Notes under the pieces: generated by a model | Told to the model about the DNA's origin: nothing | Seen by the model: the letters and a program-made list of their open reading frames with translations, nothing else | Database searches by the model: none | Program-made: the position numbers and the translations under genes | Source of the DNA: Candidatus Omnitrophota bacterium | GTDB taxonomy: Bacteria; Omnitrophota; Gorgyraeia; 1-14-0-20-64-10 | Reading direction: 5' to 3' | Length of the DNA: 39,181 nucleotides | Assembly (NCBI GenBank): GCA_016201735.1 | Contig: JACQCH010000061.1 | Location: 1-39,181 of the forward strand | Part shown: positions 21,233 through 39,181 of the stretch, piece after piece | Numbering within the stretch: position 1 is the stretch's first letter | Layout of the letters: each line of letters opens with the position of its first letter

Positions 21233-22615
21233 TCATCTAAAAACCGTTCGCGCTGAGTCTGTCGGTTCCGTTCGCCCTGAGCCCGTCGAAGGGCGAATCT
21301 CCCCGACAAGACTATGTCCTCGCAAACGGGTGACCAGAACCTCTACCAGGTCTCCCGGTTTTACGCCCTGATCCCCGAAATAGGTTTTCCGATTCGTCCG
21401 GCTCCGTCCCATTCCCGGCTCTTCCACTAAGACTTCCACCGTCTGACCCACATACGGCTGATCTTTCTCGCAGGAGATCTGCTCCTGCAGTTTCAGCAGG
21501 GTCTGGAGCCGCCGGTCCTTAACTTCCCGGGGAACATCGTCCGGCCATCGGGAAGCGGCGGCAAAAGGACGCGGGGAATAATTAAAGATAAAGGCCGAAT
21601 CAAACCGGGCTTTCTCCATCAACCGGACCGTCGCCTCAAAATCGGCCTCCGTCTCTCCCGGGAAACCGATAATGATGTCCGTAGTCACTGCCGCGCCGGC
21701 TACGGTCCGACGCAGAAGCTCCAGCTTCCCTAGATACTCCTCCGCCGTGTAGCCCCGGCGCATCCTCTCAAGGAGAGTATCCGAGCCGGACTGGACCGGA
21801 AGGTGCAGATGCTCGCAGACATGCTCCAAATCCCGCATCGCGACAAATAACTCCTCCACCGCGTCCCACGGGTGCGACGTGATGAACCGGACCCTCTCGA
21901 TTCCAGGCACCCCGTTCACCCGCTTGAGCAATTCAGGAAAGGTGACCCTCTGCCGTTCGTGCTGAGCCTGTCGAAGCACGAACGGTTCCCCGCTCATCCG
22001 CCGGCCGTACGAGTTCACATTCTGCCCCAACAACATCACCTCCCGGTATCCCTGCGCGGCCAACCGCCGCACCTCCTCCACCACCTGCTCCGGCGGGCGG
22101 CTGACCTCCGGCCCCCGGGTGTACGGGATGATGCAGTAACTGCAGACCTTGTCGCACCCCTCCATGATCGTCACCAGCGCCGTCACCTTCCCCGAATGAT
22201 ACGAGATCGTTTGGAACTCCTGGCGCTGTTTCTCCTGGATTGCCATCATCGGCTTCCGCTCTTCCCAGATCGTTTCAATCAGTTCCGGCACCTGGTAAAG
22301 CTGTGCCGGCCCCGAAATAAAATCGACATGCGGCATCCGCTTAAAGATCTTCCCCCGCTGGGCCTTGGCCATACAGCCCATTACCCCAATGATCAGCTCC
22401 GGCCGGGCCGCCTTGAGTTCCTTGAGCGCCCCCACGTTCGACCAGACCTTATCCTCGGCGTGCTCCCGCACCGAGCAGGTGTTGAACAGGATCACATCCG
22501 CCTGTTCCTCGGACTCGGTCAGGGCATATCCCTTCTCCAGGAGCAGGCCCGTCACCTCCTCCGAATCCCTCACATTCATCTGGCAGCCGTAGGAGCAAAC
22601 CCATAACTTTCGCAT
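21233..22615 (-). CDS. miaB: tRNA-2-methylthio-N6-dimethylallyladenosine synthase MiaB
   Basis: MiaB is the radical-SAM methylthiotransferase acting after MiaA on A37. The 460-residue protein has the UPF0004 domain with its three cluster Cys (YGCQMNVRDSEE, NTCSVREHAEDK, GVMGCMAKAQ), the radical-SAM motif CDKVCSYCIIP, LLGQNVNSYG, HLPVQSGSD, DIIIGFPGETE and a TRAM domain at the end. Two repeat-derived stretches are present: EPFVLRQAQHERQ in a variable loop, and the last 20 residues (RPSTGSGRTE onward). The first 40 bases overlap the end of the serine recombinase gene, and AAGGA within that gene serves as ribosome-binding site, so the native upstream region has been replaced by the mobile element. 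Confidence 0.95.
   Translation of the reverse strand: MRKLWVCSYGCQMNVRDSEEVTGLLLEKGYALTESEEQADVILFNTCSVREHAEDKVWSNVGALKELKAARPELIIGVMGCMAKAQRGKIFKRMPHVDFISGPAQLYQVPELIETIWEERKPMMAIQEKQRQEFQTISYHSGKVTALVTIMEGCDKVCSYCIIPYTRGPEVSRPPEQVVEEVRRLAAQGYREVMLLGQNVNSYGRRMSGEPFVLRQAQHERQRVTFPELLKRVNGVPGIERVRFITSHPWDAVEELFVAMRDLEHVCEHLHLPVQSGSDTLLERMRRGYTAEEYLGKLELLRRTVAGAAVTTDIIIGFPGETEADFEATVRLMEKARFDSAFIFNYSPRPFAAASRWPDDVPREVKDRRLQTLLKLQEQISCEKDQPYVGQTVEVLVEEPGMGRSRTNRKTYFGDQGVKPGDLVEVLVTRLRGHSLVGEIRPSTGSGRTEPTDSARTVFR
21247..21299. repeat. Palindromic repeat encoding the MiaB C-terminus
   Basis: TTCGCCCT and AGGGCGAA (within 21271-21298) form a perfect eight-base stem around GAGCCCGTCGA. A truncated second copy (CGTTCGCGCTGAGTCTGTCG) lies just left at 21247-21266. 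Translated, they give STGSGRTE and TDSARTVF at the end of MiaB. Confidence 0.8.
21953..21985. repeat. Palindromic repeat inside miaB
   Basis: CCGTTCGTGCT and AGCACGAACGG are a perfect eleven-base inverted repeat around GAGCCTGTCGA. It shares this centre with the repeat at the miaB 3' end and resembles that in grpE. It encodes FVLRQAQHERQ in a loop of MiaB between GQNVNSYG and the next conserved helix, and keeps the frame. Confidence 0.9.
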
Positions 22616-24201
22616 AAGTTCTTGTCCTTTTTATCGTTTAGAACGAGAGAACCTGTTTCTGTTAGGATCAGAGAACCCTCCCACGACCTGCCCTCGTGCC
22701 AACTTTTGAACGGCTCCTTAAGGGAGAAGTCTTTCACCTTAAACTGCCGGCCCCTGGGCCTCCCTTCGATGGCAAGGAAGTTAAAGACACCCCGATAGAC
22801 GATCCGTTGCTGCACCGGCGTCATCTTTGCCCAGACAGCGTCAAACTCTTGAAGGAGATCGAAGACCCGATCCAGGCTGCCTCGGAAAGTCTCGGCTCCC
22901 TGCATCTTGGCCTCCACCTGGGCCAACTCTTGTTGGGCAAGTTCTATTTCCTTGAACAGCCGTTGGTTCTCGGCCTTTAACTGCTCTGTCGTAATCGCCC
23001 CTTCATAGTATGCCTCAAGGCATTTCTCCTGGGCTTGTTTCAAGAAACGGAGACTCGACCGAAGTTCACGAACCCGCCGTGACAGGTCAGGGTGGCCTCG
23101 CTCCAAGGCCGCCCTGATCTCTTGGCGGGTTAACTCCATCAACTGCGGGTTGCTCATCGCCTTCTTGAGAATCTCAAAAGCCAGGGGGTGTGCCCTATCG
23201 GCTTTTACAGATTGCCCTCGGCAGGCTTTTCGAGTCCGAGCCACTTTCTGCCCACAAACGTACCAAGGAGCCTTCTCCTTGGTACGTTTGTTCACGGTGG
23301 AACGATTCCCCACCATGTTCCCACCGCAATGTTGGCACTTGAGGACGCCTTGGAGCACGTAGGGTGAACTGACCCGTCCGGGTTGGATGCCGTTCGATTC
23401 TCGGGTCCGCTCCACATTGACGGCTTGCACCTTCTCCCATGTCTCAGGGGCAATTACCGGCTTCACCACGGGTTGTTCACTCCGAACACCACTCCATTCC
23501 AAGTGACCGTCCAAATAAAAATTACGGTGCAACATAACCTCAATCTGGTGGGTGGTAAAGTGGCGGCCCACCCGGTTACGAATGCCTTGATCCGCAAGGC
23601 GGAGTGCAACGGAATAGTGGGACAAACCGCTGGCTCTAAGCCTAAACGTCTCTCGGAGGATCTTGATTTCCTCAGGGATCTCTACCAACTTCGTGTTCGG
23701 TTTGTCGTATCGGTATCCGTAAAAACAGTACCTCGCTCCCTGCCAGTGGCCCTTCTGGACGCCTTTCCTCATCCCCGGCATGACCCGCTCAATGAGCCTA
23801 TCCCGCTCATACTCCGCTTCACTAAAGGCGTCACGAAGTCTCTTCTTCCCAAAGGCGGTCTTCGTATCGATGAGCTCAGTAGCAGAAAAGAGTCCGATTC
23901 CAAGATCCTGAACGAGATGTTTGAGAACCCGAAGGCCTTCCAGGGTGTTTCGAGTGAGACGATCCACCTTCCACACGATAAGCGCCTGAATGCGCCCCGT
24001 CTCAGCATCCTCGATCAATCGCTGATACTTCTCCCGATCCGTCTTGTACCCACTCTCGATATCTTGGTAGACTTGACCCTCCCGCAGTTCGGGATGCGAT
24101 CTGATAAACTTCCGGCAATCCTCAAGCTGCGTCTCCAGCGAATAACCTTCCCTTCCCTGATCCTCTGTGGAGACTCGAATATAAATGCCGGCAGTCTTCA
24201 T
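22576..24201 (-). CDS. Large serine recombinase (integrase of the mobile element)
   Basis: This is a phage-type large serine integrase of about 541 residues from ATG 24201 (an ATG six codons earlier is also possible). The N-terminal catalytic domain begins AGIYIRVSTEDQGREGYSLETQ with the nucleophilic Ser, and LIVWKVDRLTRN and RLRDAFSEAEYERDRL complete it. The recombinase domain follows (GYRYD, then VALRLADQGIRNR), then a zinc ribbon CQHCGGNMVGN with a second Cys pair, and a coiled coil (about 365-450). The last 13 residues are read from the first codons of miaB in another frame. The position identifies this as the left end of the element. A MerR/excisionase-like gene lies immediately upstream, a common arrangement. 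Confidence 0.93.
   Translation of the reverse strand: MKTAGIYIRVSTEDQGREGYSLETQLEDCRKFIRSHPELREGQVYQDIESGYKTDREKYQRLIEDAETGRIQALIVWKVDRLTRNTLEGLRVLKHLVQDLGIGLFSATELIDTKTAFGKKRLRDAFSEAEYERDRLIERVMPGMRKGVQKGHWQGARYCFYGYRYDKPNTKLVEIPEEIKILRETFRLRASGLSHYSVALRLADQGIRNRVGRHFTTHQIEVMLHRNFYLDGHLEWSGVRSEQPVVKPVIAPETWEKVQAVNVERTRESNGIQPGRVSSPYVLQGVLKCQHCGGNMVGNRSTVNKRTKEKAPWYVCGQKVARTRKACRGQSVKADRAHPLAFEILKKAMSNPQLMELTRQEIRAALERGHPDLSRRVRELRSSLRFLKQAQEKCLEAYYEGAITTEQLKAENQRLFKEIELAQQELAQVEAKMQGAETFRGSLDRVFDLLQEFDAVWAKMTPVQQRIVYRGVFNFLAIEGRPRGRQFKVKDFSLKEPFKSWHEGRSWEGSLILTETGSLVLNDKKDKNLCESYGFAPTAAR
23254..23291. repeat. Perfect 16-base hairpin inside the integrase gene
   Basis: ACAAACGTACCAAGGA (23254-23269) and its exact complement (23276-23291) flank a six-base loop. 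It lies in the zinc-ribbon coding segment (KRTKEKAPWYV) between the two Cys pairs. A stem this long and perfect is unusual within a coding region. Confidence 0.85.
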
Positions 24202-24211
24202 TACTACCTGG

Positions 24212-24445
24212 TCAAGCATGAGCCATCGGCCTCAAAGCATTCCTCCATTGGCGGATCTGCTGGATACCGTCTTCAGTGAATACCGGCTTACTCCGGTAAT
24301 CAAGCATGGGTGTAACCCAACCCTTCTTGATCCAGAATCGGAGCGTAACGTAGGGGACACCAAGGAGGGCAGCGGTTTGCTTAAGATTGTAGCGGGTGGC
24401 TGTCTCTGTGTGAGTCTGTCTGTTATTCTTGCGCCTTGAACGCAC
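24212..24445 (-). CDS. Small MerR/excisionase-like DNA-binding protein
   Basis: The 77-residue frame starts at GTG. Residues about 18-60 (YNLKQTAALLGVPYVTLRFWIKKGWV and FTEDGIQQIRQW) form the winged helix-turn-helix of the MerR/HTH_17 excisionase group. It ends 12 bases before the preferred start of the serine integrase and would overlap its longer start. Small proteins in this position often control excision direction or integrase expression, so a recombination directionality factor is a fair inference. No clear Shine-Dalgarno is seen. A possible promoter (TTTACA, 18 bases, TAGTGT) spans about 24447-24476 on the minus strand. Confidence 0.7.
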   Translation of the reverse strand: MRSRRKNNRQTHTETATRYNLKQTAALLGVPYVTLRFWIKKGWVTPMLDYRSKPVFTEDGIQQIRQWRNALRPMAHA

Positions 24446-24488
24446 ATAGCTACACTATCACCAAATATCATCCATTGTAAAGAACATT

Positions 24489-24764
24489 TTACTGCTCCTC
24501 TTTAGGAAGAATTCCCCTTTCCCGTGCCAATTGCAATACCCCCTGGGTCAAAGCGGACACGACGGCATGGATCGAGCCTATATCTACAACTGCCTCTCTA
24601 AGCCAAGGACCATTGAGTTGGTCGCTCCGCCTCTCTTCTTCCTCATCCAAAGGAAGTGGTTCCTCTTCAATATACCCGAGGAAAGCCCCGGAAGGACTTA
24701 GCACGACCGTCGGCCCTATCCCTAAAAGCTCGGCCAGGTAAGGATCAAGTCCCAGATCGCTCAT
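24489..24764 (-). CDS. Small acidic protein of unknown function
   Basis: From ATG 24764 the product has 91 residues (a GTG at 24818 would give 109, but with more overlap with the resolvase). It contains PYLAELLGIGPTVVLSPSGAFLGYIEEEP, an acidic stretch (LDEEEERRSD) and a C-terminal helix (VVSALTQGVLQLARERG). No family is recognised. It overlaps the resolvase stop by 20 bases in the same direction, so it is probably co-expressed as an accessory gene of the element. Confidence 0.5.
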   Translation of the reverse strand: MSDLGLDPYLAELLGIGPTVVLSPSGAFLGYIEEEPLPLDEEEERRSDQLNGPWLREAVVDIGSIHAVVSALTQGVLQLARERGILPKEEQ

Positions 24765-25389
24765 CAGAACCTGTACCAAAATCCTGTCCCGTGGTTTCTG
24801 GAGAGGGTAACTGGGCACGGTTGACCTTGAGGACTCGCCGGATGGTAGAACGGCTACAACGAGCCTTTTCGGCGATTTCTCTTAGAGAGAGCCCACGCTG
24901 ATTCATGGCTGTAATTTCTTTGGGGTCAACCAGAATCCTCGGGCGACCCAACCGGACTCCTTTGGCTTTGGCGTGTGCGATCCCGGCTCGCACCCTCTCT
25001 TGAATCAGGTTGCGCTCCAGCTGGGAGAATGCCCCAGACAGGTAAAAGAGGGCTTCCCCGAAGGGTGTGGTGGTATCGATCTGTTCCGTGATGGAGATGA
25101 ACTCGATCTTCCGACTCTTGAATTCCTCTAAAGCCTGGACCAGGTGTCTGACGGATCGAGCAAACCGGTCAAACCGCCAAACCAAGACCACCCGGAATCT
25201 TCGGAGCCGAGCATCCGCCATGAGCTGATCCAGCCCGGGGCGTCGTTCCTTACCCCCAGAGATCCCTCGGTCCACATACTCTCGGGTAACTTCCCACCCC
25301 TTGGCTTGGACGTATTCCCGCAGCGCCCGAAGTTGTACCTCCGGGTCCTGGTCTAGGGTTGAAACCCTAACATAGAGAACTACTTTCAC
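24745..25389 (-). CDS. Small serine resolvase/invertase
   Basis: A GTG at 25389 preceded by GGAG gives a 214-residue protein that begins VKVVLYVRVSTLDQDPEVQ, with the catalytic Ser in YVRVST. GISGGKERRPGLDQLM, VVLVWRFDRFARSVRHLV, ITEQIDTTTPFGEALFYLSGAFSQLERNLIQERVRAG and LGRPR are the classic resolvase/Pin-invertase catalytic motifs. The C-terminus carries a helix-turn-helix (SLREIAEKARCSRSTIRRVLK). It may resolve multimers of the element or invert a segment. It overlaps the methyltransferase gene by 23 bases. It is separate from the large integrase downstream and much smaller. Confidence 0.9.
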   Translation of the reverse strand: MKVVLYVRVSTLDQDPEVQLRALREYVQAKGWEVTREYVDRGISGGKERRPGLDQLMADARLRRFRVVLVWRFDRFARSVRHLVQALEEFKSRKIEFISITEQIDTTTPFGEALFYLSGAFSQLERNLIQERVRAGIAHAKAKGVRLGRPRILVDPKEITAMNQRGLSLREIAEKARCSRSTIRRVLKVNRAQLPSPETTGQDFGTGSDERSGT

Positions 25390-26800
25390 CCTTTTTCTCC
25401 ATATTAAATAGCGGATTGTCTTGGGCAATCCGCTTCCGAGCCATCTCTACATACTCGGCCTTTAACTCAATCCCGATGAATTTCCTGTTGTAGCGCAGAG
25501 CAATGACTCCAACGGTTCCTGAGCCACAAAAAGGATCGAGGACGGTGCAGGGAAACGGGTCAAGATCATGAACGCACGTAGGATGCCACCCCGTTGTTTT
25601 CACTTCGTAGTGGCCAATGACCCCGCCGTCACCCATCGTCATTGATTTCGATTCACCGTCTCGCATCTTCCTCGCTCCTCGATGTCGGGTTGGTCCATCT
25701 TGGACCAGCATTTTCTTTACCCCGCGCCTCCGTGGTGCCTCGCAAGTTGGACAGCATCCCCCTTCACTTGTCCCGGCCTTGATGCATCGCTCGACGAGCT
25801 TCTCGGGAAAAGTGGCGAAGTGGGCTTCCTTGAATGGCTGAGTGGTAATCTTCCAGACGGTTCGGATGTTTCTGCCTTCTTCTGGATTGACGAATGCTTT
25901 TCCTCGATACCAAGAAGGAAGATCCGGCCGGTTTTCAACCCCATACTTGGAGCCCTCCTTCTCTCCCTGCGTGTGCCTTCCCGTCCCATTGCGACGGTCT
26001 GCTAAGGTGCTGTCTGCCAACGGCTCTCGGACTGCATCCTGATCGAAGTAATACTTCTCCGACTTCGTCAGCAAGAACACATACTCATGGGCCTTCGTCG
26101 GCCGGTCAGCCACCGACTCCGGCATCGGATTCGGTTTATGCCAGACAATGTCTGACCTGAGCCACCAACCGTTTTCCTGAAGAGCGAAAGCCACACGCCA
26201 GGGGATCCCGCAGAGGTCCTTCCGCTTGAGGCCCTTGTAGTCTGCGGTGGGGGGCCTATCCTTGAAGTTCTCATATCCCCGACGGTTCCACACCTCGCTC
26301 ACCCGATTCCTCTGCTTGCACTCCCTGTCCCCGAATCCGCCCCAGGATCCTGCGTAGGAGTCCCCCAGGTTCAGCCACAGGGTGCCGTCCTTCCGCAGCA
26401 CCCGCCGGATCTCTCGGAACACTTCCACAAGGTGCTGGACGTATAGCTCCAGCGACGGCTCCAATCCCAGCTCGCCGCGCCAGGTGTGGCACTTGAGGCA
26501 AACGCCGGTCGGCACCCGGACGTTCTTCCCGATCAGTTTTTGGACTTCTTCCCTGCGTTGCTGGGTGGTTCCTGTAGTCAGTGTGGAGCTGGCGTTGGCC
26601 CCGTAGCTTTGCCCCTTGGCGATGCGGATACGGGTCTGCCACTCATGCGGGCAGTCCGGCCTTCCGCCCCACACCTGTGGCTCCGTGCCGTAGGAACGCA
26701 AGCCCCAGTAGGGTGGAGAGGTTATGACGCAGTGCACAGATTCCGCTCGTAGGGTCCTTAACATTGCCCTCACGTCGCCTTGGAGGAGAGAGTAGGTCAT
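25367..26800 (-). CDS. Beta-class site-specific DNA methyltransferase (N4-C or N6-A)
   Basis: The 477-residue protein has the catalytic motif ITSPPYWGL near residue 27-35 and the AdoMet-binding motif DPFCGSGT at 422-429, so motif IV precedes motif I, as in the beta class. SPPY is commoner in N4-cytosine enzymes but also occurs in N6-adenine enzymes. Between them are EVFREIRRVLRKDGTLWLNLGDSYAG, WRVAFALQENGWWLRSDIVWHKPNPMPES and THE-type EYVFLLTKSEKYYFD, typical of this group. Cys pairs (CPHEW with CLKCHTW; CCPTC) suggest a bound zinc. No matching restriction enzyme lies beside it, so it is probably a solitary methyltransferase that protects or marks the element. It overlaps the upstream HTH gene by four bases. 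Confidence 0.88.
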   Translation of the reverse strand: MTYSLLQGDVRAMLRTLRAESVHCVITSPPYWGLRSYGTEPQVWGGRPDCPHEWQTRIRIAKGQSYGANASSTLTTGTTQQRREEVQKLIGKNVRVPTGVCLKCHTWRGELGLEPSLELYVQHLVEVFREIRRVLRKDGTLWLNLGDSYAGSWGGFGDRECKQRNRVSEVWNRRGYENFKDRPPTADYKGLKRKDLCGIPWRVAFALQENGWWLRSDIVWHKPNPMPESVADRPTKAHEYVFLLTKSEKYYFDQDAVREPLADSTLADRRNGTGRHTQGEKEGSKYGVENRPDLPSWYRGKAFVNPEEGRNIRTVWKITTQPFKEAHFATFPEKLVERCIKAGTSEGGCCPTCEAPRRRGVKKMLVQDGPTRHRGARKMRDGESKSMTMGDGGVIGHYEVKTTGWHPTCVHDLDPFPCTVLDPFCGSGTVGVIALRYNRKFIGIELKAEYVEMARKRIAQDNPLFNMEKKGESSSLC

Positions 26801-27159
26801 TTCTTAGACTCTGCATATCGGAGTTTATAAAGTCTCCTGAATTCCTTCTTGCCCGTGGGGCCTACCACTCGGTGAGCATCGGTCAGGGACACACGCATCC
26901 GGCCTCCCTTCCCGTATCTCCGCCAGCTAAAACGGTGTCGTCGCTTATACATGGCTTTATAGGAGAACCCAAAGAGCTCCCCCAACTTGCCCAGGGTCAA
27001 GAGCGACTTTCTCCAGACCTCGGACCTCCGAACGTAGCGCCATCCCCGTTCGTCCCGACCTACGTTCAGCCTCCCCTTCTGGATGTGGCCGGTGAGGCAC
27101 CTCGGGGTCAGCCCTAAAAGCCGTGCTCCTTGGCCGATCGGTATCCAGTCATCCCCCAT
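26797..27159 (-). CDS. Putative helix-turn-helix DNA-binding protein
   Basis: This 120-residue basic protein begins MGDDWIPIGQGARLLGLTPRCLTGHIQKGRL, a helix-turn-helix pattern like that of excisionase or MerR-type domains. A second possible helix pair follows (LGKLGELFGFSYKAMYKRRH). The C-terminal half is rich in Arg and Lys. It overlaps the methyltransferase start by four bases and is the first gene after the 27160-27303 gap, so it may control the methyltransferase-resolvase group. I do not recognise a named family. Confidence 0.55.
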   Translation of the reverse strand: MGDDWIPIGQGARLLGLTPRCLTGHIQKGRLNVGRDERGWRYVRRSEVWRKSLLTLGKLGELFGFSYKAMYKRRHRFSWRRYGKGGRMRVSLTDAHRVVGPTGKKEFRRLYKLRYAESKK

Positions 27160-27175
27160 GAAAATTCCGCCCTGT

Positions 27176-27231
27176 GAAGTTTTCCAGGTACATGATTAAG
27201 CGCCGTTTCGGGAAGAGAAGTTTTCCGGGTA
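27176..27231. repeat. 15-base direct repeats in the gap before the HTH gene
   Basis: GAAGTTTTCCAGGTA (27176-27190) and GAAGTTTTCCGGGTA (27217-27231) are direct repeats with one mismatch, 41 bases apart. They occupy the only sizeable gap (27160-27303) among the minus-strand genes of the element, next to a near-palindrome around 27266-27286. They could be binding sites for a regulator or replication protein. No strong promoter is obvious. Confidence 0.45.
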
Positions 27232-27303
27232 ACTGGGTTGGAAGCTCGTCGAGAAGCGGTTTGTACACACTTGTGCTATACATTCCCATATCCCTTGCGT
27301 TTC

Positions 27304-27906
27304 TCATTGGGGTTTACCCTGGGTTTTAAGCGGTTCTTCAGGCAGCACCGTTCCATCAAAGTAGATCTTGACCAAGTGGACGCTTTTTAAGGTTTCGTAT
27401 GATGGGTGGGGCAGGTTAAGAAGTTCTGTCAGCTCCGCTTCGGTATAGATGGCGCCCCGAGGGATACCCTTCCTGACAAGCTGGGCCATCTCCTGATCAC
27501 AGCAGACAAACCATGCCTCTCCATCCAGGACCCAGCTCCAGCCGTGGTAGATCCAATGCCGACCAGGGAAACCTTCAGAGGGTTGCCGCTCTTGGATGTC
27601 GGAGATCCTGGCCCTGGCGTGAGTCAGGGCCGACTGGAACGTTGCCCAATCGCTATCTCGATACGCCTGGTCAATCTGCTTTTCAAACGACCGGAACCAG
27701 GAAAGAACCGCCTGGTGGGCATTCGGAGGGAGTTCCTCGAAAACCCGGGCCACCCAGCGGTTGAACCTCAAAAAATCCTCCCACATGGAAGACCGGACCG
27801 CTTCCAGGGATGTCTCTGTAGGCCCACCCAAGGGGCCGCAGGGGATTTGGTGAGCCGCTACCGGAGGCCTATAGAACCGATCAATTAGAGAAGCCATGGT
27901 TTTCAC
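27304..27906 (-). CDS. Hypothetical protein downstream of the primase
   Basis: The 200-residue product starts with GTG overlapping the primase stop codon by four bases (an ATG three codons later is an alternative), so it is translationally coupled to replication. It has a helical middle (FLRFNRWVARVFEELPPNAHQAVLSWFRSFEKQIDQAYRDSDW), then WIYHGWSWVLDGEAWFVCC and GAIYTEAELTELLNLP. The last part is the type of segment seen in small mobile-element proteins. No family is recognised and no catalytic motif is evident. Confidence 0.6.
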   Translation of the reverse strand: MKTMASLIDRFYRPPVAAHQIPCGPLGGPTETSLEAVRSSMWEDFLRFNRWVARVFEELPPNAHQAVLSWFRSFEKQIDQAYRDSDWATFQSALTHARARISDIQERQPSEGFPGRHWIYHGWSWVLDGEAWFVCCDQEMAQLVRKGIPRGAIYTEAELTELLNLPHPSYETLKSVHLVKIYFDGTVLPEEPLKTQGKPQ

Positions 27907-30374
27907 GAAGGTTTCCTATTTTTCCCTTCCTCCACTCCCTGCCCGCCGCTAGGTGGCTTGTCTAGGGGCTGTGGAGGCTGTGCAGGAAGCGGTAAATTGG
28001 GAAAGTTCTCCGAAGATGCAGGCACTCTCTTTGAGAAGACCCACCGGGAGGTATGACTGGTTGGGGTGACGCTGATCTTGATACCCGAGGTCAACTCCAA
28101 GACCCGCCTGGAGGAATGGAGATGCTTGCCAAAAGCCGCTGAGCTCTTGGGGAGGGAAAACCCCTTGCTCTTGGCGATCAGACCCAGTTCGTTGTACAAG
28201 TCCCCTGTCTCGATCTCCCGGCCCAGGTTTCCTCCTATCGATAACCAGTTCTCCAGGCATGCGGCCACGGGATCTTCCTCGGTGGCGTACCGGGCCTGTT
28301 CCCCTTCCAGCCGCTCTATGGACTGACAGAATCGGGCCGCAGCCTCAGACCCGCCCATGGCCTGGCTGACTCGCCATCCGAAGGAGGCGAAATCAGCCAT
28401 CCGAAAGTTTAAAGGTGGTGCCTCAGGGACCTCCCGGAGAGCCACGAGTACCTGATTAACCCGATCCAGGAGATCAGACCACACCGCATCTCGCTGCTCC
28501 AGCGTTTGGGCGAGGATAGATGATTCAGGAACGAACTTCTCGGGTCTTGCCAGCCGACAAAGCAACAGCCGCTCGGCCACATCGGGACGGCGGAAGTGGG
28601 GATCTCGGGAGGTAAGGACCAAGTGGGCCGTGGGGCTATGGACGGATAGCGTGTTGGTCGTGTAGAGTTTCCGCAATTCAAAATACTGGCCCGTTGCAAA
28701 GGTTGCCAGCCGATCCGGCAACCATCGGATGGGAGCATCGGCATTGTCAAAAGCGGCGAAAGGCTTACCACAGACAGCAGCAATGAAACCTTGTTCTCCC
28801 CGTTCCCCCGTCTCCAGGTGCCCAACGTTGAACCGTTCCCCCACCAACTGCATCCCCAAGCGGCGTGCCGTTGTCGTTTTCGTAGACCCCTGGGGTCCAA
28901 TGAATGTCGGGATCAGTTTGGTAGGATGGAGTTCGGGGAAAAACAAAGAGAGCATCCAGATAAACAGGAGATCCCGGGATTTCTCGGAGGAGAGTCCAGA
29001 ATCCAAATCAAAATGGATGGGTTCTAGAAAGGACTGTACAGTGGCTCCGCCAGGCCGCTGGTCGATGGGAAGGTAGGTAAATGGCTGAACTAGTGGAGAG
29101 GTGGCAAACAGAATCCCCTCCTCCCCGTTGGGTACAGGGGTCACCGATTGGCCGTCCAGCACCCACATGCCGGACCCGAAGTCGGTCACAAACACCCGAT
29201 GGGAAACCTGCTCGTAGTGGACCAAATGAAATACCTTCGTTCTCTGACCCCGCTGATGCGCCTCGGTCCGTAGATGTTCCATCAGGTATTTGAACTCGTT
29301 TTCAATCGGGTTTAGCCCTGTCAGATCCGCCAGGAACCTCAAAAACTCTTCTGTGTTGAGGCCCAAGAGGGTTTTGTTGACCCCGTTGAAGAAGTACGGG
29401 TGTTCTTCGGGCGTTAGGTACAACGTACCCGCCTTGCCCTGCCGGAGAAGATGGTCGGTGACCCTTCTGGCAATCCGTTGCCGTTTCTCGAAGGCCAGCG
29501 CTTCCTTCGGAGGCAGTCTGCGGATTTCGTGAATCTGCGTCTTCAAATCAGACGGAGAAAGTGATTCACCATCGGAAGAGGGGTACTGACCTACAGAACG
29601 AGCGATGGTGGTGACTTCTTCGGGATTCAAAGGAGGCTGGCACCGCTGTTTGTTGACTTCTTGGAGGATGGCCTCAATCGTGGTGGGATCTAGACCTGCC
29701 CGTCGCAGAGATCCCGCCGAGCTCGTAAGTACATTGTTTCGGCTGCCCTCGGGGATGGGTCCCTCTCCGAGAGCTTTGTAGGCGGGACGCTCAACGGTTT
29801 TCTCATCCACTTTCACACCCCAGACGGCCAGAGCGTCGAGTGCCCATCGACGTGCATCTGGAACAGAAAGGGGGATGCCATCCTGGATGAGCTCGTATCC
29901 CTGGGAGGGTGCCACTACTACAAGGCCTCCCTCTCCTTTTAGATCGGCCACACCCTTGACCAGAGGTCCAGAGGCGCTGGTGGTTTGGGTTTCGAGAAGG
30001 AAGATATGAGCACCGCCCCTGGGAGTCCGTTCTAAACGGGTGGATAGACCTTCTTCGATTACCCGCCCGGCGAGAGCCGGTTCGTCGATATCGAGGACCG
30101 CCAGCCCGCCACTAACCGATCCGCAAACGACGCCGATATTGGAGTTCGGCCATTGCTTCCGCCACTGGCGAACCTCCGCCTCAGTAGGGCGACGACGTTG
30201 GAATTCGGTCCACTCGATGCGAGGATGCTTACCCGGGCTGTCGCATCCGTCTCTTCCACAGGTGCATTGCCCAGTGGGGGTCTTTCCATGCATTGGGATA
30301 ACGGACCATCCCATTCGGAGATAGGTCAGCGCAGCTTCACCAAGATCGTTTGAATCGGAAACACTCTCCTGCAT
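27903..30374 (-). CDS. Primase-polymerase/helicase replication protein of the element
   Basis: The 823-residue protein begins with a bifunctional primase-polymerase (AEP) domain: GWSVIPMHGKTP, WPNSNIGVVCG, LAVLDIDEP with the metal-binding D95-x-D97, and TPRGGAHIF with H123. A PriCT-1-like helical segment lies at about 205-265 (GSRNNVLTSSAGSLRRAGLD). The C-terminal half is an ATPase/helicase with Walker A GPQGSTKTT (about 493-501), Walker B AFDNAD (541-546) and a likely Arg-finger stretch (TSRDPHFRRPDVAERLL). The residues from 790 on are Pro/Gln-rich and disordered. Such proteins start replication of plasmids, phages and satellites, so the element can probably replicate after excision. It lies 11 bases after the zinc-finger gene. 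Confidence 0.88.
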   Translation of the reverse strand: MQESVSDSNDLGEAALTYLRMGWSVIPMHGKTPTGQCTCGRDGCDSPGKHPRIEWTEFQRRRPTEAEVRQWRKQWPNSNIGVVCGSVSGGLAVLDIDEPALAGRVIEEGLSTRLERTPRGGAHIFLLETQTTSASGPLVKGVADLKGEGGLVVVAPSQGYELIQDGIPLSVPDARRWALDALAVWGVKVDEKTVERPAYKALGEGPIPEGSRNNVLTSSAGSLRRAGLDPTTIEAILQEVNKQRCQPPLNPEEVTTIARSVGQYPSSDGESLSPSDLKTQIHEIRRLPPKEALAFEKRQRIARRVTDHLLRQGKAGTLYLTPEEHPYFFNGVNKTLLGLNTEEFLRFLADLTGLNPIENEFKYLMEHLRTEAHQRGQRTKVFHLVHYEQVSHRVFVTDFGSGMWVLDGQSVTPVPNGEEGILFATSPLVQPFTYLPIDQRPGGATVQSFLEPIHFDLDSGLSSEKSRDLLFIWMLSLFFPELHPTKLIPTFIGPQGSTKTTTARRLGMQLVGERFNVGHLETGERGEQGFIAAVCGKPFAAFDNADAPIRWLPDRLATFATGQYFELRKLYTTNTLSVHSPTAHLVLTSRDPHFRRPDVAERLLLCRLARPEKFVPESSILAQTLEQRDAVWSDLLDRVNQVLVALREVPEAPPLNFRMADFASFGWRVSQAMGGSEAAARFCQSIERLEGEQARYATEEDPVAACLENWLSIGGNLGREIETGDLYNELGLIAKSKGFSLPKSSAAFGKHLHSSRRVLELTSGIKISVTPTSHTSRWVFSKRVPASSENFPNLPLPAQPPQPLDKPPSGGQGVEEGKNRKPS

Positions 30375-33129: not shown

Positions 33130-33268
33130 ACCATTGAGAACACTATGGAGAGATGTGCTGGGATGCCTCGGCGGTCCGGCGCAACGTCGAGCGAATTCTC
33201 CTTGGGCAGGGGCCTCAAGTGATTGGGAAAACGAAACCCGAGCGGTTGCAACCTGAGAGGGATTGACG

Positions 33269-33790
33269 ATGCGAAACGGAGAAAAGGGAGAACTCGTTAA
33301 GTTGCTTTACGGGCAGGAGCTAAGGTTCTTCGCATTCGGAGAGGAAATGGAACCTCGTAAGGGGCACGACTTACGGCTTTTGGCTTATGAGGTTCTCACT
33401 GATTTGCCCAAGGAGGTTCGTGAATGGGTAGTCCAATCAATTTGCTTTATCGAACTGTGGGGCCATGGTGGCGAATTTCCCCCGAGTCTACTGCGGAGAA
33501 TGCGTTGGGAGAAAAATGGAAAGGGCAGCTCGAATTCTCGCTTCATTGCTTTGTCGAGTAGGCTGAGGCGGGAGCCGGAGGCAGTGGCAAAGTTCGTGAT
33601 TGCCCATGAGATTGCCCACGTGTGGTTGAAACACGATCCGGTAGTTAAAACCCCAGAGGATGAACGGCAGGCTGACGCACAAGCGGCAAAATGGGGATTC
33701 CCGCCCTCTAAGGAGCGCGTCCGCTATGTCGAAGAGGGGAGGCGCAGAACAGAACGGACTAGACGAGCGCCGAGACTCCCCCGGCGGTAG
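33269..33790 (+). CDS. ImmA/IrrE-like zinc metallopeptidase
   Basis: From ATG 33269 (GAGAGG upstream; an in-frame TTG two codons earlier) the protein has 173 residues. The zincin motif HEIAHVWLKH lies at about 113-122, and ERQADAQAAKWGF downstream supplies the third Glu ligand, the pattern of the ImmA/IrrE and related DUF955-like peptidases. There is no N-terminal signal. The C-terminus is very basic. Peptidases of this type cleave XRE repressors of integrative elements, and this element has such a regulator at 30775-30996, so it is a candidate inducer. Pairing with the nuclease gene, 139 bases upstream, could also indicate a toxin or defence role. Confidence 0.75.
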   Translation: MRNGEKGELVKLLYGQELRFFAFGEEMEPRKGHDLRLLAYEVLTDLPKEVREWVVQSICFIELWGHGGEFPPSLLRRMRWEKNGKGSSNSRFIALSSRLRREPEAVAKFVIAHEIAHVWLKHDPVVKTPEDERQADAQAAKWGFPPSKERVRYVEEGRRRTERTRRAPRLPRR

Positions 33791-34060: not shown

Positions 34061-37000
34061 TTACAGATACCCAGCCAAAGTGTCCCAGCTGTCTTTGGCA
34101 CTCTGAAATAATCCTGATTCGAATAGGGCCACCAAGTCCTGCCCAGCCCGGAGGGCTTCCAATATCATCCGCAAAGTCGCTGGAGCAACATACTCGATCT
34201 TCCCTTGAAAGCTGCTCAATGTCTGGCTGATTTGTGACGGTTGCCGACCAGAGAGAACCTGGATTCCAACACCGGGAACAATTCCAGAGATCACACGCCT
34301 TATGGCCGTTTCAAACCGCTCTGCTTCTGTCCTTCCGGGCATCTCATCCAAAGAAATCACTCTGGCGCCACTGACCCTACCTGCTAATGACTCCGCTGCA
34401 AGCAGGTCTGAATAGGATCGGACAATTGCTACGGTTCCCCTGGGCAGATAGGGCGAGAGAGCTGCCCTTTCAGGACTTGGATTTCCCCGTTCATCTGTCG
34501 TCGTATCCACAATCGTTAAAACAGACCGATCCTGGTCTGCCCCCACGGGGAAAGTGGTGTTTCTAAAAGGACTCAACACACGCATTAGACTTGTTACCAG
34601 CCCCACCACCTTGCCAGTTACTACCTGCTCTTCCAATTCAATAAACCGCATCGGCAACACTCCTTGCTGAGCAGATAGCACCTGAACCGATGGCAAGGAT
34701 ACAAGCTGTTCCTCCAAGCCGGATTTCTTCTGTATTTGGGAGATAGCCTCTTGGATGGTTTCACGAATGGTAAAATCCTTTTCGCGCTCTAGAGCCCGAT
34801 TCAAATGAGGCAGTGCCTCTTTTGCCTCTGGTCCAATCCTCCCTAAAGCCATTGCGCTCGTTTCTCGTACAACCGGCACATCGTCTTGCAAAACCTTGAT
34901 CAAAGCTGGGACCGCTTCCTTCGCCTGCGGCCCAATCCGACTCAGAGATTCCCCTGCAGTCCTGCGGACATGGGGGTTAGCACTCACCAGAGCAGCCGTG
35001 TATTCCCTCACCAATTGGGGTGTTGGTTTGCGTGGCCGAGACCAGAATCCTTCCGGCCAAGGCTGAAGGATGCCATGGCCTACTAACTTCCAGACAACCG
35101 CACGAAAATAATCCGTGTCGGTACTAAACCCAGGGGCATTCTCCCTTGCCCACTCCTTCACCCATTTTGTAAAGCCGTCAGGATCAAGCCGCTTCTGTCT
35201 GACCTCCTTCTCGGATCGCTCGATCTGCTTCAGCAGATTCTCGTAAATCTGGTATTCCTTCCACCCGGCCTCCGACGTCCAAAAGGAATGCTTCAAACGA
35301 CTACGGTACGGGACCCGGTAAGACATTTCGTATTTACGAAACGTGGGACCCGAAAAGCTAGGTGAAGTCTCAAAGAAATGCTTCAAGTTGGACAGAAGAT
35401 TATCGTAAATCGGCCGCTCACGATCTTCTGGAAGTACCCCATAAAACACTCCAAAGAAGTGCTCGATTACACCCTGATCGTTTCTCTGGAGTGGATCTTC
35501 CGGTACCACATAATCGTAATAAGGCCTCACCATGTTGTAGGGTAACGCCAGCATAGGAGACACAACCAGTATGTGTGAAATCCGAAAGATAAGCTGTGCG
35601 TCTTCCCGTACAGGCAATTGAGAGAACGCAAAACGGTACATAGCTCTAGATCCTGCTGGGCCGATTTGATCGCCAGTATTCCACAAAGAGAGTACCGATA
35701 CCTTTTCTCTATCATGTCGCCTCAACCAATCTCCCACCTTCTTCATGCCTTCTATGTCTGTTAGGCTCATGGTGATTCCGGCGATCAACCTTCCTTCCGT
35801 CCTTCTAAAGTGGGCTCTTAAACGCTTGTAGTGCCCCTCATCCGATAACCAGCTGCCGAGCGGGTAATGAAACCAGGAAGCCCGAGCATGATTTTCCAGA
35901 AAATTGATAAACCCCTGACGTGGCAAGTCGTCTTCAGTAAGACCTGGATTCAAGAGCCTATCCGGACGCAAGAAACGATCGATCTCTTCCCTTGCTTTAC
36001 CTTTTATCTCATCGAACTGTTGCTCGTTCTTAAACCGTCCCAAGCGTTGCAACCGAGCAAAGACCTCACCCTCTAAAACCTTAAGGACCTGCTCCTGGTA
36101 CCAGGCTGTCCGTTTTTCTAGCGGAACACGTTCTGTTATTTCTCGGAGAGTAGCTTTCAGGTAAGCTTCAAGCTCCATACCCTTAACTGCTTTTGGCTCA
36201 AGCAGCCGGTTGACGTCTCCATCGCTCAGCTCAACACCAAGAAGCACTGAAAGAAACTCACGCCGTGTTTCTGCGCGCCCAACGAGATTTGCAAAGAGTG
36301 GGAGTGCGACTTCCGTCACAAGAGGGTTTTCATGAACAACGACAACCGTCGAAGAATTAGCCACGGCCGCTAATCCGAGGTCTTGCTGGAAGCTATTCCC
36401 CAATAATGTCCCACCACGATTTTTAATGAGCGGATAGACACCTTCAATACCAGAGTCTCCCTGGAATAAAGGAAGCTCGTCAAATTTCTCCCACGACCCA
36501 GTCGATAATTCATGAAGATCCCGAAAGTAAGAGTCCAGCAAATGCGGTGGCGCAGGTTTCATGGGGACGGGCTCGCGACCAACTGGAATTTCAGGAGCTA
36601 TTTGTTGAGCGGGTGGAACCGCCGGAGGAGCCTTATCCTGTCTGGTAAGCTGATAGGCACCATAAATGCCACCACCAACGACGACTGCTCCAACTGCCCA
36701 TTTGACGAGACGGCTTGTAGTACCTTTGCCCGATTCCTCGAACCTGCCGGCCGCTCCGGGAGCGCCGCTCACGTCTCGGCTCTTGCGCCACTCTTCTACA
36801 TATCCAACTGTTTCCCTAAGATGATGCCGGGTACCTATTAAAATTGTAGAGGCTGGTTGATCCAAGAGTGTCTTGAATATCTCTTGAGGAGGACGCTGGT
36901 CTCCTCTTCGGATGGGTGAGTTGAGGACTACCGCTAACCCTTGCTTACGCAGTTCATCAGCCAACTCTGGTCGCTTTAGGAAAAGGGGCGCAGGCATTTG

Positions 37001-39181
37001 GACGACATCGAGATCTTGAAGCAGCCGATCCTGAATCGCCGTACTTAGAACGTTCTCATCCGAGATAGAAGCACCAATAGCATGGATACCACCATATCTC
37101 TCCAGTTTCATCAGACGCATCTCCTCCATGACTTCACGATCCTTGAGAACCCCTACCGTCGTGCCATGGATGTACAAGAGATCAACCTTTCCAAGTCGAG
37201 AAAGACTCCGAGCCACAGATGCTCGGAGATTCTGAAGGGAATGATCGAGCCGCGAAGTCCCGCTGGCCACGTCAAACTCCTCCCCCCATTTCGTCGCAAC
37301 GAAAGCGTAAGGAACCCGAGCAGGATGTTCCCGGAGATACTGGCCGATCCGTTCCTCACTGAATCCATAGGCAGCCGCTATGTCAATCATGACCACTCCT
37401 TCCTGATTCCCCATTCGAGCGAATGCCTCATCAAGATAAGCCCGGATCTCCTCCGTTGTTGGCTCTACATATGAAGCGTTACCAGGTGGCCATTGTCTCC
37501 CGAACCAAATGGTCCCAACGCCCAACACAAAGAATTTCAGGCCGGTCTTCCCAAAATCCCGAACGACCCCACGCTCCTCCTCTGCCCCGGCACGGATCAT
37601 CGGCTCCATAAGCTTAAAGAGGGTGTCTCGCATCTGCACAATGGCGGGGTGCTCGGAAAGGATCCCCCCGTCTTCACTGAGATGAGGGAATATACCTCCC
37701 TCTGTGGGAAGGTTTAAATTGGTCGACATTCGATCCCTCACTTTCCTGCGGATCTCGGCCACCGGCATCGTCTTGACCTTCACAAAGAGGTCTACCTCTG
37801 CCTCCCCCACGGTGGAATCCACGGTCAGGGCCTTCATGACCTGTTGCCGCACAAAGCGACCCGCCCAGTGATGAAGCCTGTCCGAGGGATTTGCGGCTGC
37901 TTCCAGAACAGCGGTGGTAGCCTCGAGCATTCCTCGTGGTGAATCTGCAAAGATGAGGTGACGAAAATAAGCCGCTACCTCAGGAATGTCGTTTTCTATG
38001 TTATCTGGAGGATCTTGGCGGATAAAACTCTCTAGGTCTGAGTTCGGAATGACAGCCTGTCGAACCGCCTCTTCACCTTCTCCAAACTCCTCAAAGACAA
38101 CAGCATCTGCTGCATGACCCAACTCTTCATGAAGGAGCTCTCGGAGATACCTTTGATAGAAAGCGCTCACCGACCCAATAGGGTGCCCTGCTTTTTTCCA
38201 CCACCTGATCCCATTTTGGACCGTCCGATGTATCTCTCCAACATCGAGAATCAGCACCCCCTTCACATGACTATAGGCCGTGGTAAGCCCTTCCGGCCAG
38301 ACGACCAGAAGGATCTCCTTTCCTCCCGCTTGGATGCGCCACCAAGCCGCTGGAGGACCAAAAATGAGCTCGTGACGGCCCCCTTCGATCCTGAGAAAAA
38401 CCCACACACCGCCGTAAGGAAGGAAAAGTTGGGGATTAAGGAACTCATCCAGGTTGATGATCCTGCCTTCCCATTGCTGCCGGTCTTGCGTGTACGCAAC
38501 GGTCTCTTTCACTTGCCGCAGGCGGCTGAGAATATCAGAGGTCAGTCCCTTGTCGGAAGCTGGCTCAATGGTGGGCAGGACCTCCTCAGCGGAGTGGATC
38601 CATTTATCCAAACGATCCAAAGCCAGAGATTTCGCCGCTGTTTCATCCTTCTCTGTAAGGATCTTGGCTAACAGGTCCTGATACTGAGCCGCCAGCTCCA
38701 CGACGGCTTCCACCGTCTGCTGCGTTCCAGGTAGAGGTTGACTTGGTTGTGTCTCACCTTCGAGTCGTTGCTCTTTCGTTCGTTTTTTCAGCGGAATGTT
38801 CCGCTTAGCTTCTTCTTGCTGTCGCCAATGCGTCTTAGCTCGTTGCACGGCACCCAGAATAACGCCCGCCGTGCTGTCGAGCTTCCTCTTCTCCACCTGT
38901 CCCCGGATTGCCCTTTTCGCGTCGCCTAAGGTCTCCGTCCTCTCGAGAACCTCCCAGTGTCTCTCGGTCAGCTTCTCCGCCAACTGAGGACGAACCTGCG
39001 TAAGCTCTTCCTGAATCATCTCTCTCAATGACTTTTCCTCCATTCCCGCAGAGATTGTGGCAAGCGTGTGGCTGACTGTCGTCGACGAAGAAGGGGCGGA
39101 ATTCGTCAGGGCGTCGACCAGTTGTCCCTTGATCTGATCGGATTCCTCAAGACCCGTCTGACGCAGGGCAAAGGCAGGGTA
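34061..39181 (-). CDS. Giant mosaic protein with aldo/keto-reductase domain, N-terminus outside window
   Basis: No stop codon interrupts this frame between 34061 and the right edge, so the start lies outside; at least 1,706 residues are encoded. Counting from the first in-window ATG (39043), residues 500-750 are an aldo/keto reductase with IDIAAAYGFSEERIGQYL, VATKWG and DLLYIHG, keeping the complete tetrad D554, Y559, K585 and H626. A membrane segment lies at about 779-799, then a Pro-rich linker, a long helical region without recognised family, HEAT-like repeats at about 1343-1440 (VRRTAGESLSRIGPQAKEAVPALI) and a C-terminal domain with alternating strands and helices. Such multi-domain giants are known from Omnitrophota. 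The reductase may be an enzyme fused for localisation. Substrate and role are unknown. Confidence 0.85.
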   Translation of the reverse strand, partial: YPAFALRQTGLEESDQIKGQLVDALTNSAPSSSTTVSHTLATISAGMEEKSLREMIQEELTQVRPQLAEKLTERHWEVLERTETLGDAKRAIRGQVEKRKLDSTAGVILGAVQRAKTHWRQQEEAKRNIPLKKRTKEQRLEGETQPSQPLPGTQQTVEAVVELAAQYQDLLAKILTEKDETAAKSLALDRLDKWIHSAEEVLPTIEPASDKGLTSDILSRLRQVKETVAYTQDRQQWEGRIINLDEFLNPQLFLPYGGVWVFLRIEGGRHELIFGPPAAWWRIQAGGKEILLVVWPEGLTTAYSHVKGVLILDVGEIHRTVQNGIRWWKKAGHPIGSVSAFYQRYLRELLHEELGHAADAVVFEEFGEGEEAVRQAVIPNSDLESFIRQDPPDNIENDIPEVAAYFRHLIFADSPRGMLEATTAVLEAAANPSDRLHHWAGRFVRQQVMKALTVDSTVGEAEVDLFVKVKTMPVAEIRRKVRDRMSTNLNLPTEGGIFPHLSEDGGILSEHPAIVQMRDTLFKLMEPMIRAGAEEERGVVRDFGKTGLKFFVLGVGTIWFGRQWPPGNASYVEPTTEEIRAYLDEAFARMGNQEGVVMIDIAAAYGFSEERIGQYLREHPARVPYAFVATKWGEEFDVASGTSRLDHSLQNLRASVARSLSRLGKVDLLYIHGTTVGVLKDREVMEEMRLMKLERYGGIHAIGASISDENVLSTAIQDRLLQDLDVVQMPAPLFLKRPELADELRKQGLAVVLNSPIRRGDQRPPQEIFKTLLDQPASTILIGTRHHLRETVGYVEEWRKSRDVSGAPGAAGRFEESGKGTTSRLVKWAVGAVVVGGGIYGAYQLTRQDKAPPAVPPAQQIAPEIPVGREPVPMKPAPPHLLDSYFRDLHELSTGSWEKFDELPLFQGDSGIEGVYPLIKNRGGTLLGNSFQQDLGLAAVANSSTVVVVHENPLVTEVALPLFANLVGRAETRREFLSVLLGVELSDGDVNRLLEPKAVKGMELEAYLKATLREITERVPLEKRTAWYQEQVLKVLEGEVFARLQRLGRFKNEQQFDEIKGKAREEIDRFLRPDRLLNPGLTEDDLPRQGFINFLENHARASWFHYPLGSWLSDEGHYKRLRAHFRRTEGRLIAGITMSLTDIEGMKKVGDWLRRHDREKVSVLSLWNTGDQIGPAGSRAMYRFAFSQLPVREDAQLIFRISHILVVSPMLALPYNMVRPYYDYVVPEDPLQRNDQGVIEHFFGVFYGVLPEDRERPIYDNLLSNLKHFFETSPSFSGPTFRKYEMSYRVPYRSRLKHSFWTSEAGWKEYQIYENLLKQIERSEKEVRQKRLDPDGFTKWVKEWARENAPGFSTDTDYFRAVVWKLVGHGILQPWPEGFWSRPRKPTPQLVREYTAALVSANPHVRRTAGESLSRIGPQAKEAVPALIKVLQDDVPVVRETSAMALGRIGPEAKEALPHLNRALEREKDFTIRETIQEAISQIQKKSGLEEQLVSLPSVQVLSAQQGVLPMRFIELEEQVVTGKVVGLVTSLMRVLSPFRNTTFPVGADQDRSVLTIVDTTTDERGNPSPERAALSPYLPRGTVAIVRSYSDLLAAESLAGRVSGARVISLDEMPGRTEAERFETAIRRVISGIVPGVGIQVLSGRQPSQISQTLSSFQGKIEYVAPATLRMILEALRAGQDLVALFESGLFQSAKDSWDTLAGYL

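Follow-up and report, generated by a model that had tools for sequence, protein, structure and literature searches.

We present here a short, tetrad-complete aldo/keto reductase (AKR) which, judging from sequence, is one interchangeable block of a predicted exported chain in a Candidatus Omnitrophota bacterium, together with a five-residue motif, AG[LM]EE, whose enrichment is confined to one Omnitrophota order among the Omnitrophota genomes searched. The gene lies at the end of the window, i.e. the whole stretch of 39,181 nucleotides that was analysed (contig JACQCH010000061.1), as an uninterrupted minus-strand ORF at 34061-39043 that stays open to 39181 (1,660 and 1,706 aa, respectively). The missing upstream sequence was recovered on contig C60, the end of which overlaps the window end over 119 exact bases, followed by one mismatch just beyond; this overlap is unique in the genome and is the sole support for joining C60 to C7. 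The multi-module ORF thus completed occupies 34061-39181 of the window, with codons 1-22, the start of the signal peptide, on C60:52106-52171. It begins at C60:52106 and encodes 1,728 aa in a gene of ~5.2 kb, in line with the chain of more than 1,700 residues anticipated from the window. The label 'giant', however, does not hold by Omnitrophota standards, as the gene falls short of the >20 kb used to define giant ORFs in this phylum and one relative has a 45,379-aa open frame with HEAT-like repeats (G033:C1, near 1240454). A search of the genome contigs collection with the whole ORF as protein returned no relatives. The full-length N-terminus (MRRTTVTRFLALSLALSLILSPYPAFALRQTGLEE / MRRTTVTRFLALSLALSLILSPYPAFALRQ) was judged by eye to be a classical Sec-type signal peptide, from which we infer that the chain is exported.

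The AKR module spans 36755-37576 (minus strand). It matched the Pfam family Aldo_ket_red (PF00248) at ORF residues 507-714 with an E value of 1.9e-16 and 60.4 bits against a cut-off of 24. The catalytic tetrad D554/Y559/K585/H626 (D622/Y627/K653/H694 in full-length numbering; codons at 37382-37384, 37367-37369, 37289-37291 and 37166-37168, minus strand) is invariant, at positions 70, 75, 101 and 142, in an alignment, A1, with four other AKRs, namely a paralogue, two standalone AKRs and one ordinary AKR from the same genome. When the A1 profile was compared to solved AKRs, 4exa, 6kik and 5dan were matched across nearly the whole barrel (E 1e-24 to 1e-26). The original prediction of an intact D-Y-K-H tetrad mid-chain, and of a catalytic AKR inside a large Omnitrophota protein, is therefore borne out by the Pfam match and the invariant tetrad, and the signal peptide points to an envelope-directed product. 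It may be, as was suggested for it, part of a surface or intercellular machine. An AlphaFold2 model of the AKR, computed from the single sequence, was poor (pLDDT 45); its strands and helices alternate as expected for a (beta/alpha)8 barrel, and Foldseek found no AKR match with it; structure prediction of the C-terminal module without homologues was likewise too poor for use. Going by its residues alone, the AKR can probably bind a nicotinamide cofactor and carry out carbonyl reduction; its activity and substrate, and the final location of the chain, are predictions. The module resembles the AKR superfamily (PF00248; nearest solved structures 1ynp, 4exa, 6kik and 5dan) in its barrel-long profile and its tetrad, but it is only ~270 aa and is embedded in a predicted exported multi-module chain instead of forming a soluble cytoplasmic enzyme.

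A second copy of this AKR was found in the host genome inside a different protein, which has 1,513 aa and a signal peptide, the two modules sharing 50% identity from joint to joint. Two Omnitrophota genomes from other families of the class have the AKR as a standalone protein (270 and 264 aa), the ends of which fall near AGAEE/AGLEE upstream and AAGRFEE/AGLEE downstream of the module. In both genomes the standalone gene and a convergent radical-SAM/SPASM-like neighbour overlap at the end of the latter. The subfamily is rare, being present in 3 of the 237 phylum genomes and fused in the host genome only, so the same domain order was found in no other genome, as had been looked for. No match was obtained in viral contigs searched with the AKR alignment. 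Integrase/invertase-like, DNA methyltransferase and primase genes at 22579-30374 of the window, not far from the AKR gene, hint at a mobile element integrated there.

The remainder of the protein, all on the minus strand, is likewise divided by joints. A TGLEE joint (39143-39157) follows directly on the signal peptide (..PAFALRQ-TGLEE), and an AGMEE joint (GCGGGAATGGAGGAA; 39035-39049) precedes an N-terminal module without family match (37592-39034). This module contains HEELGH (38114-38131), which has a likeness to a spaced metallopeptidase motif; a true HEIAH is found in a plus-strand ORF at 33263-33790. The AKR module is preceded by an AGAEE joint (37577-37591), which aligns with the AGLEE of the paralogue, and followed by a degenerate joint, AAGRFEE (36734-36754). 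Eight residues past the latter is a glycine-rich, weakly hydrophobic segment (LVKWAVGAVVVGGGIYGAYQL; 36647-36709) that had been taken to tether the reductase to the membrane; since it is glycine-rich and falls below the 19-residue hydropathy threshold, it would be at best a weak membrane segment, which lends the tethering claim no support. Long segments had also been said to match no known family, which stands for the N-terminal module but not for ORF residues 1060-1154 (35582-35866), which match DUF7790 (PF25046, E 2.8e-7). The HEAT-like repeats described near the C-terminus were recovered as HEAT_2 (PF13646, E 7e-15) at residues 1350-1434 (34742-34996). An SGLEE joint (34709-34723) precedes the last, C-terminal module (34064-34708), which has a relative of 44% identity at the C-terminus of a G005 protein. 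We define an AG[LM]EE-punctuated protein as one with a signal peptide ending in ALR and at least two AGxEE joints that lie at module boundaries. The AKR protein has an ALR-ending signal peptide and carries TGLEE, AGMEE, AGAEE, AAGRFEE and SGLEE, and its AKR homology stops at joints.

To place this protein in context, we determined how the motif is distributed, with counts derived from pattern searches and chosen stretches. In the host genome a wobble-free AG[LM]EE pattern gave 141 matches compared to 41 for the reversed control, with tandem clusters within single ORFs, and the DNA pattern of its commonest codons gave 99 against 3. All 11 genomes of the host order, which represent two families, had 12-136 matches against 1-5 in the control, and the remaining genomes sampled from the class and the phylum had 0-9, at or near control. 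Among named records, a longer version of the motif was found in several Candidatus Omnitrophota bins and elsewhere as scattered, mostly single matches. No description of the motif was found in the literature searched, including PMC10066038, and an N-terminal FALRP tag, considered as a class-wide feature, showed no enrichment. Multi-enzyme ORFs that lack the motif occur in further families of the class as well (G017 and G016). One G017 contig (L147, G017:C27:1-6698) is in its entirety a single open frame, 2,232 aa or longer, that lacks AGLEE and combines glutamate dehydrogenase, acetate-kinase-like, phosphotransacylase, 4Fe-4S ferredoxin and TPP enzyme domains, apparently a fused fermentation pathway. 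The G016 ORF (L146, G016:C1, 3863-11371) encodes 2,502 aa with a signal-peptide-like N-terminus, an FBP aldolase/phosphatase and, by eye, a transaldolase-like stretch; its family is not enriched in AGLEE.

Around 45 motif-bearing ORFs were collected from four genera, the longest being 5,615 aa in the host genome and a 6,168-aa open frame in G001. Of those with a complete 5' end, nearly all start with what looks like a signal peptide, which typically closes in ALR, with Q, N, P or similar next. The modules of these ORFs include galactokinase/GHMP, phosphomannomutase, NAD epimerase, sugar nucleotidyltransferase, AKR, glutamate dehydrogenase together with a PLP enzyme, FBP aldolase/phosphatase, HAD phosphatase, and response regulator, WD40 and hexapeptide domains, some of these matches being weak; many modules are unmatched. 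The phosphomannomutase and sugar-nucleotidyltransferase modules of one locus (L047) seem to have altered catalytic motifs and look partly degenerate. One glutamate dehydrogenase sits in an AGLEE protein (L145:2849-7963, G000:C15), separated by 20 nt from a glutamate-synthase-like ORF that precedes it. Terminal modules generally measure 155-220 aa and for the most part are similar to other terminal modules, and several unrelated-looking terminal families are represented.

The joints coincide with module boundaries. In full-length comparisons, 12 of 32 homologous internal segments have their start no more than 8 aa from a motif in each of the two proteins, against 0.43 expected when the same segments were slid (mean of 2,000 trials, maximum 4), with the caveat that the five shared residues may attract BLAST ends. 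In G001, an ORF with a signal peptide (3,198 aa when initially extracted) has its counterpart within the 5,615-aa host chain, at 58% identity over 2,759 columns, and this homology begins exactly at a joint. When one joint was followed across five genera, motif identity was 42/50 (84%) compared to 52-58% in the flanks, with indels in the linker; one of the five orthologues has AGLES, in which the first Glu is kept and the second lost. A neutral fusion scar was rejected because the motif is kept while its flanks diverge, and on this conservation the joints are selected, not passive scars.

We therefore set out an explanation in which formerly separate genes would have fused in frame to give exported multi-module proteins, a system restricted to one Omnitrophota order. 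Each protein would have a Sec-type signal peptide, usually ending in ALR, then modules parted by AG[LM]EE within linkers rich in Pro and Ala, and most would close with a terminal module of ~155-220 aa. The joint would most likely be an exposed site at which adjoining modules are held apart or cut apart, so that they could act independently and be exchanged. Architecture, order restriction, module exchange at joints and motif conservation were computed here, and in the architecture we have high confidence. The overall explanation, exported multi-module fusion proteins with an accessible and perhaps cleaved linker, we hold to be somewhat favoured, and actual cleavage at the joints would be rather less than an even prospect. 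Twin-arginine-like segments with a hydrophobic stretch occur directly after a joint in four cases (two in one protein and one in another genus), one of them scoring over the cut-off of NCBIfam TIGR01409. Such signals suggest that the modules either still form separate exported chains or derive from them, in which case their position would make sense. Cutting would cover the accessibility of the site, its fixed sequence and these downstream signals; what stands against it is that a protease site does not account for constraint at the nucleotide level, and the orthologue with AGLES also counts against the explanation. Enzymes that depend on NADPH or ATP are unusual outside the cytoplasm, so the modules would either not remain outside it or have changed their role.

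Alternatively, AG[LM]EE may be a structural linker or hinge that leaves the modules joined in one long exported chain with a scaffold or coat function, the role proposed for the giant protein of Velamenicoccus, a reading that we think possible but doubtful. The Pro/Ala-rich flank upstream of the joints is typical of flexible linkers, HEAT and WD40 modules suit protein-protein contacts, and giant ORFs are widespread in the phylum, with a role as surface coats or adhesins put forward for them (PMC10066038). However, a passive hinge needs no fixed five-residue sequence with constrained synonymous bases, and internal twin-arginine-like signals past the joints are hard to fit into an uncut exported chain. 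In another reading, which we consider unlikely, the chains would come apart while still in the cytoplasm, through a protease or in the course of translation; enzymes of the AKR type would work there, and the first module alone would be exported. This would account both for the cofactor-dependent enzymes and for the twin-arginine-like signals after joints, and the only glutamate dehydrogenase and FBP aldolase/phosphatase detected in the host genome do sit inside AG[LM]EE chains. However, the relatives in the order are without these two enzymes altogether, hence these are not essential to the lineage, and no processing protease or ribosome-skipping motif was recognised.

The joints are also constrained at the nucleotide level. 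In the host genome, synonymous codon use at the motif departs strongly from that in the remainder of these proteins for Ala (p 7e-9), Gly (5e-8), Leu (3e-12) and the first Glu (1e-9), with no bias at the second Glu. Across four genera the deviation spans codons -2 to +3 and stops sharply, with none at +4 or outside; here the Leu codon bias is partly by choice, as the G001, G007 and G008 loci were selected with a pattern in which the Leu wobble base is fixed, whereas host-genome loci were taken with the wobble-free pattern, among the matches listed, with clusters favoured. GCC-GGG encodes Ala-Gly in 32 of 73 cases in the motif but in 29 of 253 outside it. Such figures, and the resemblance of GGAGGA to a Shine-Dalgarno core, could mean that the joint is mainly a nucleotide element (a translation pausing, recombination or copying site) with the AG[LM]EE translation incidental, which we find still less probable than separation in the cytoplasm. 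All examined matches in the fetched loci are in frame, so the peptide matters. Internal translation starts at GGAGGA were considered and rejected, as start codons downstream were just slightly over control and ATG was under it, and RNA structure at the joint showed nothing clear above control. There is no avoidance of GGAGG in the remainder of these genes (290 against 271 expected), and other LEE tripeptides show part of the Leu and Glu bias (18/26 each); local context accounts for part of that bias, but not for GCC-GGG. Finally, ordinary chance fusion or an assembly artefact is highly improbable: the gene spans a contig end and the genomes are metagenome bins, but frames of thousands of codons run uninterrupted and recur across genera with conserved joints, and the overlap of the contig ends is exact over its 119 nt and unique.

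Among known systems, the giant ORFs of Omnitrophota are reported to show few annotated domains and poor conservation (PMC10066038). Our proteins are alike in being long, poorly annotated, envelope-directed and from the same phylum, but they have exchangeable, recognisable modules that include metabolic enzymes, a fixed motif, and lengths of ~600-6,000 aa, not tens of thousands. They also resemble polyproteins with repeated processing sites in combining several functional units with a recurrent short separator, but here the motif is bacterial, genome-wide and order-restricted, and the cutting is hypothetical. With substrates of secretion systems (type IX, for example) that carry an N-terminal signal and a C-terminal sorting domain, they share a signal peptide and a recurring C-terminal module that is mostly similar to other last modules, whereas no known sorting family was matched and the terminal families are several and look unrelated. 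That this order has dozens of true polyproteins, multi-enzyme chains split at AG[LM]EE under both peptide and nucleotide constraint, some modules with their own export signals, and fusion at these sites serving as a module-exchange system, we offer as a speculative and rather unlikely extension.

To conclude, the motif points to an undescribed way of building long multi-enzyme proteins in these bacteria. It raises the puzzle of why enzymes of central metabolism (AKR, glutamate dehydrogenase, FBP aldolase/phosphatase and sugar kinases) are found in signal-peptide chains, and whether genome-wide polyproteins exist in bacteria. If our explanation is right, cutting these chains in silico at AG[LM]EE would yield modules for separate search, folding and expression, and the long proteins of this lineage would become readable.
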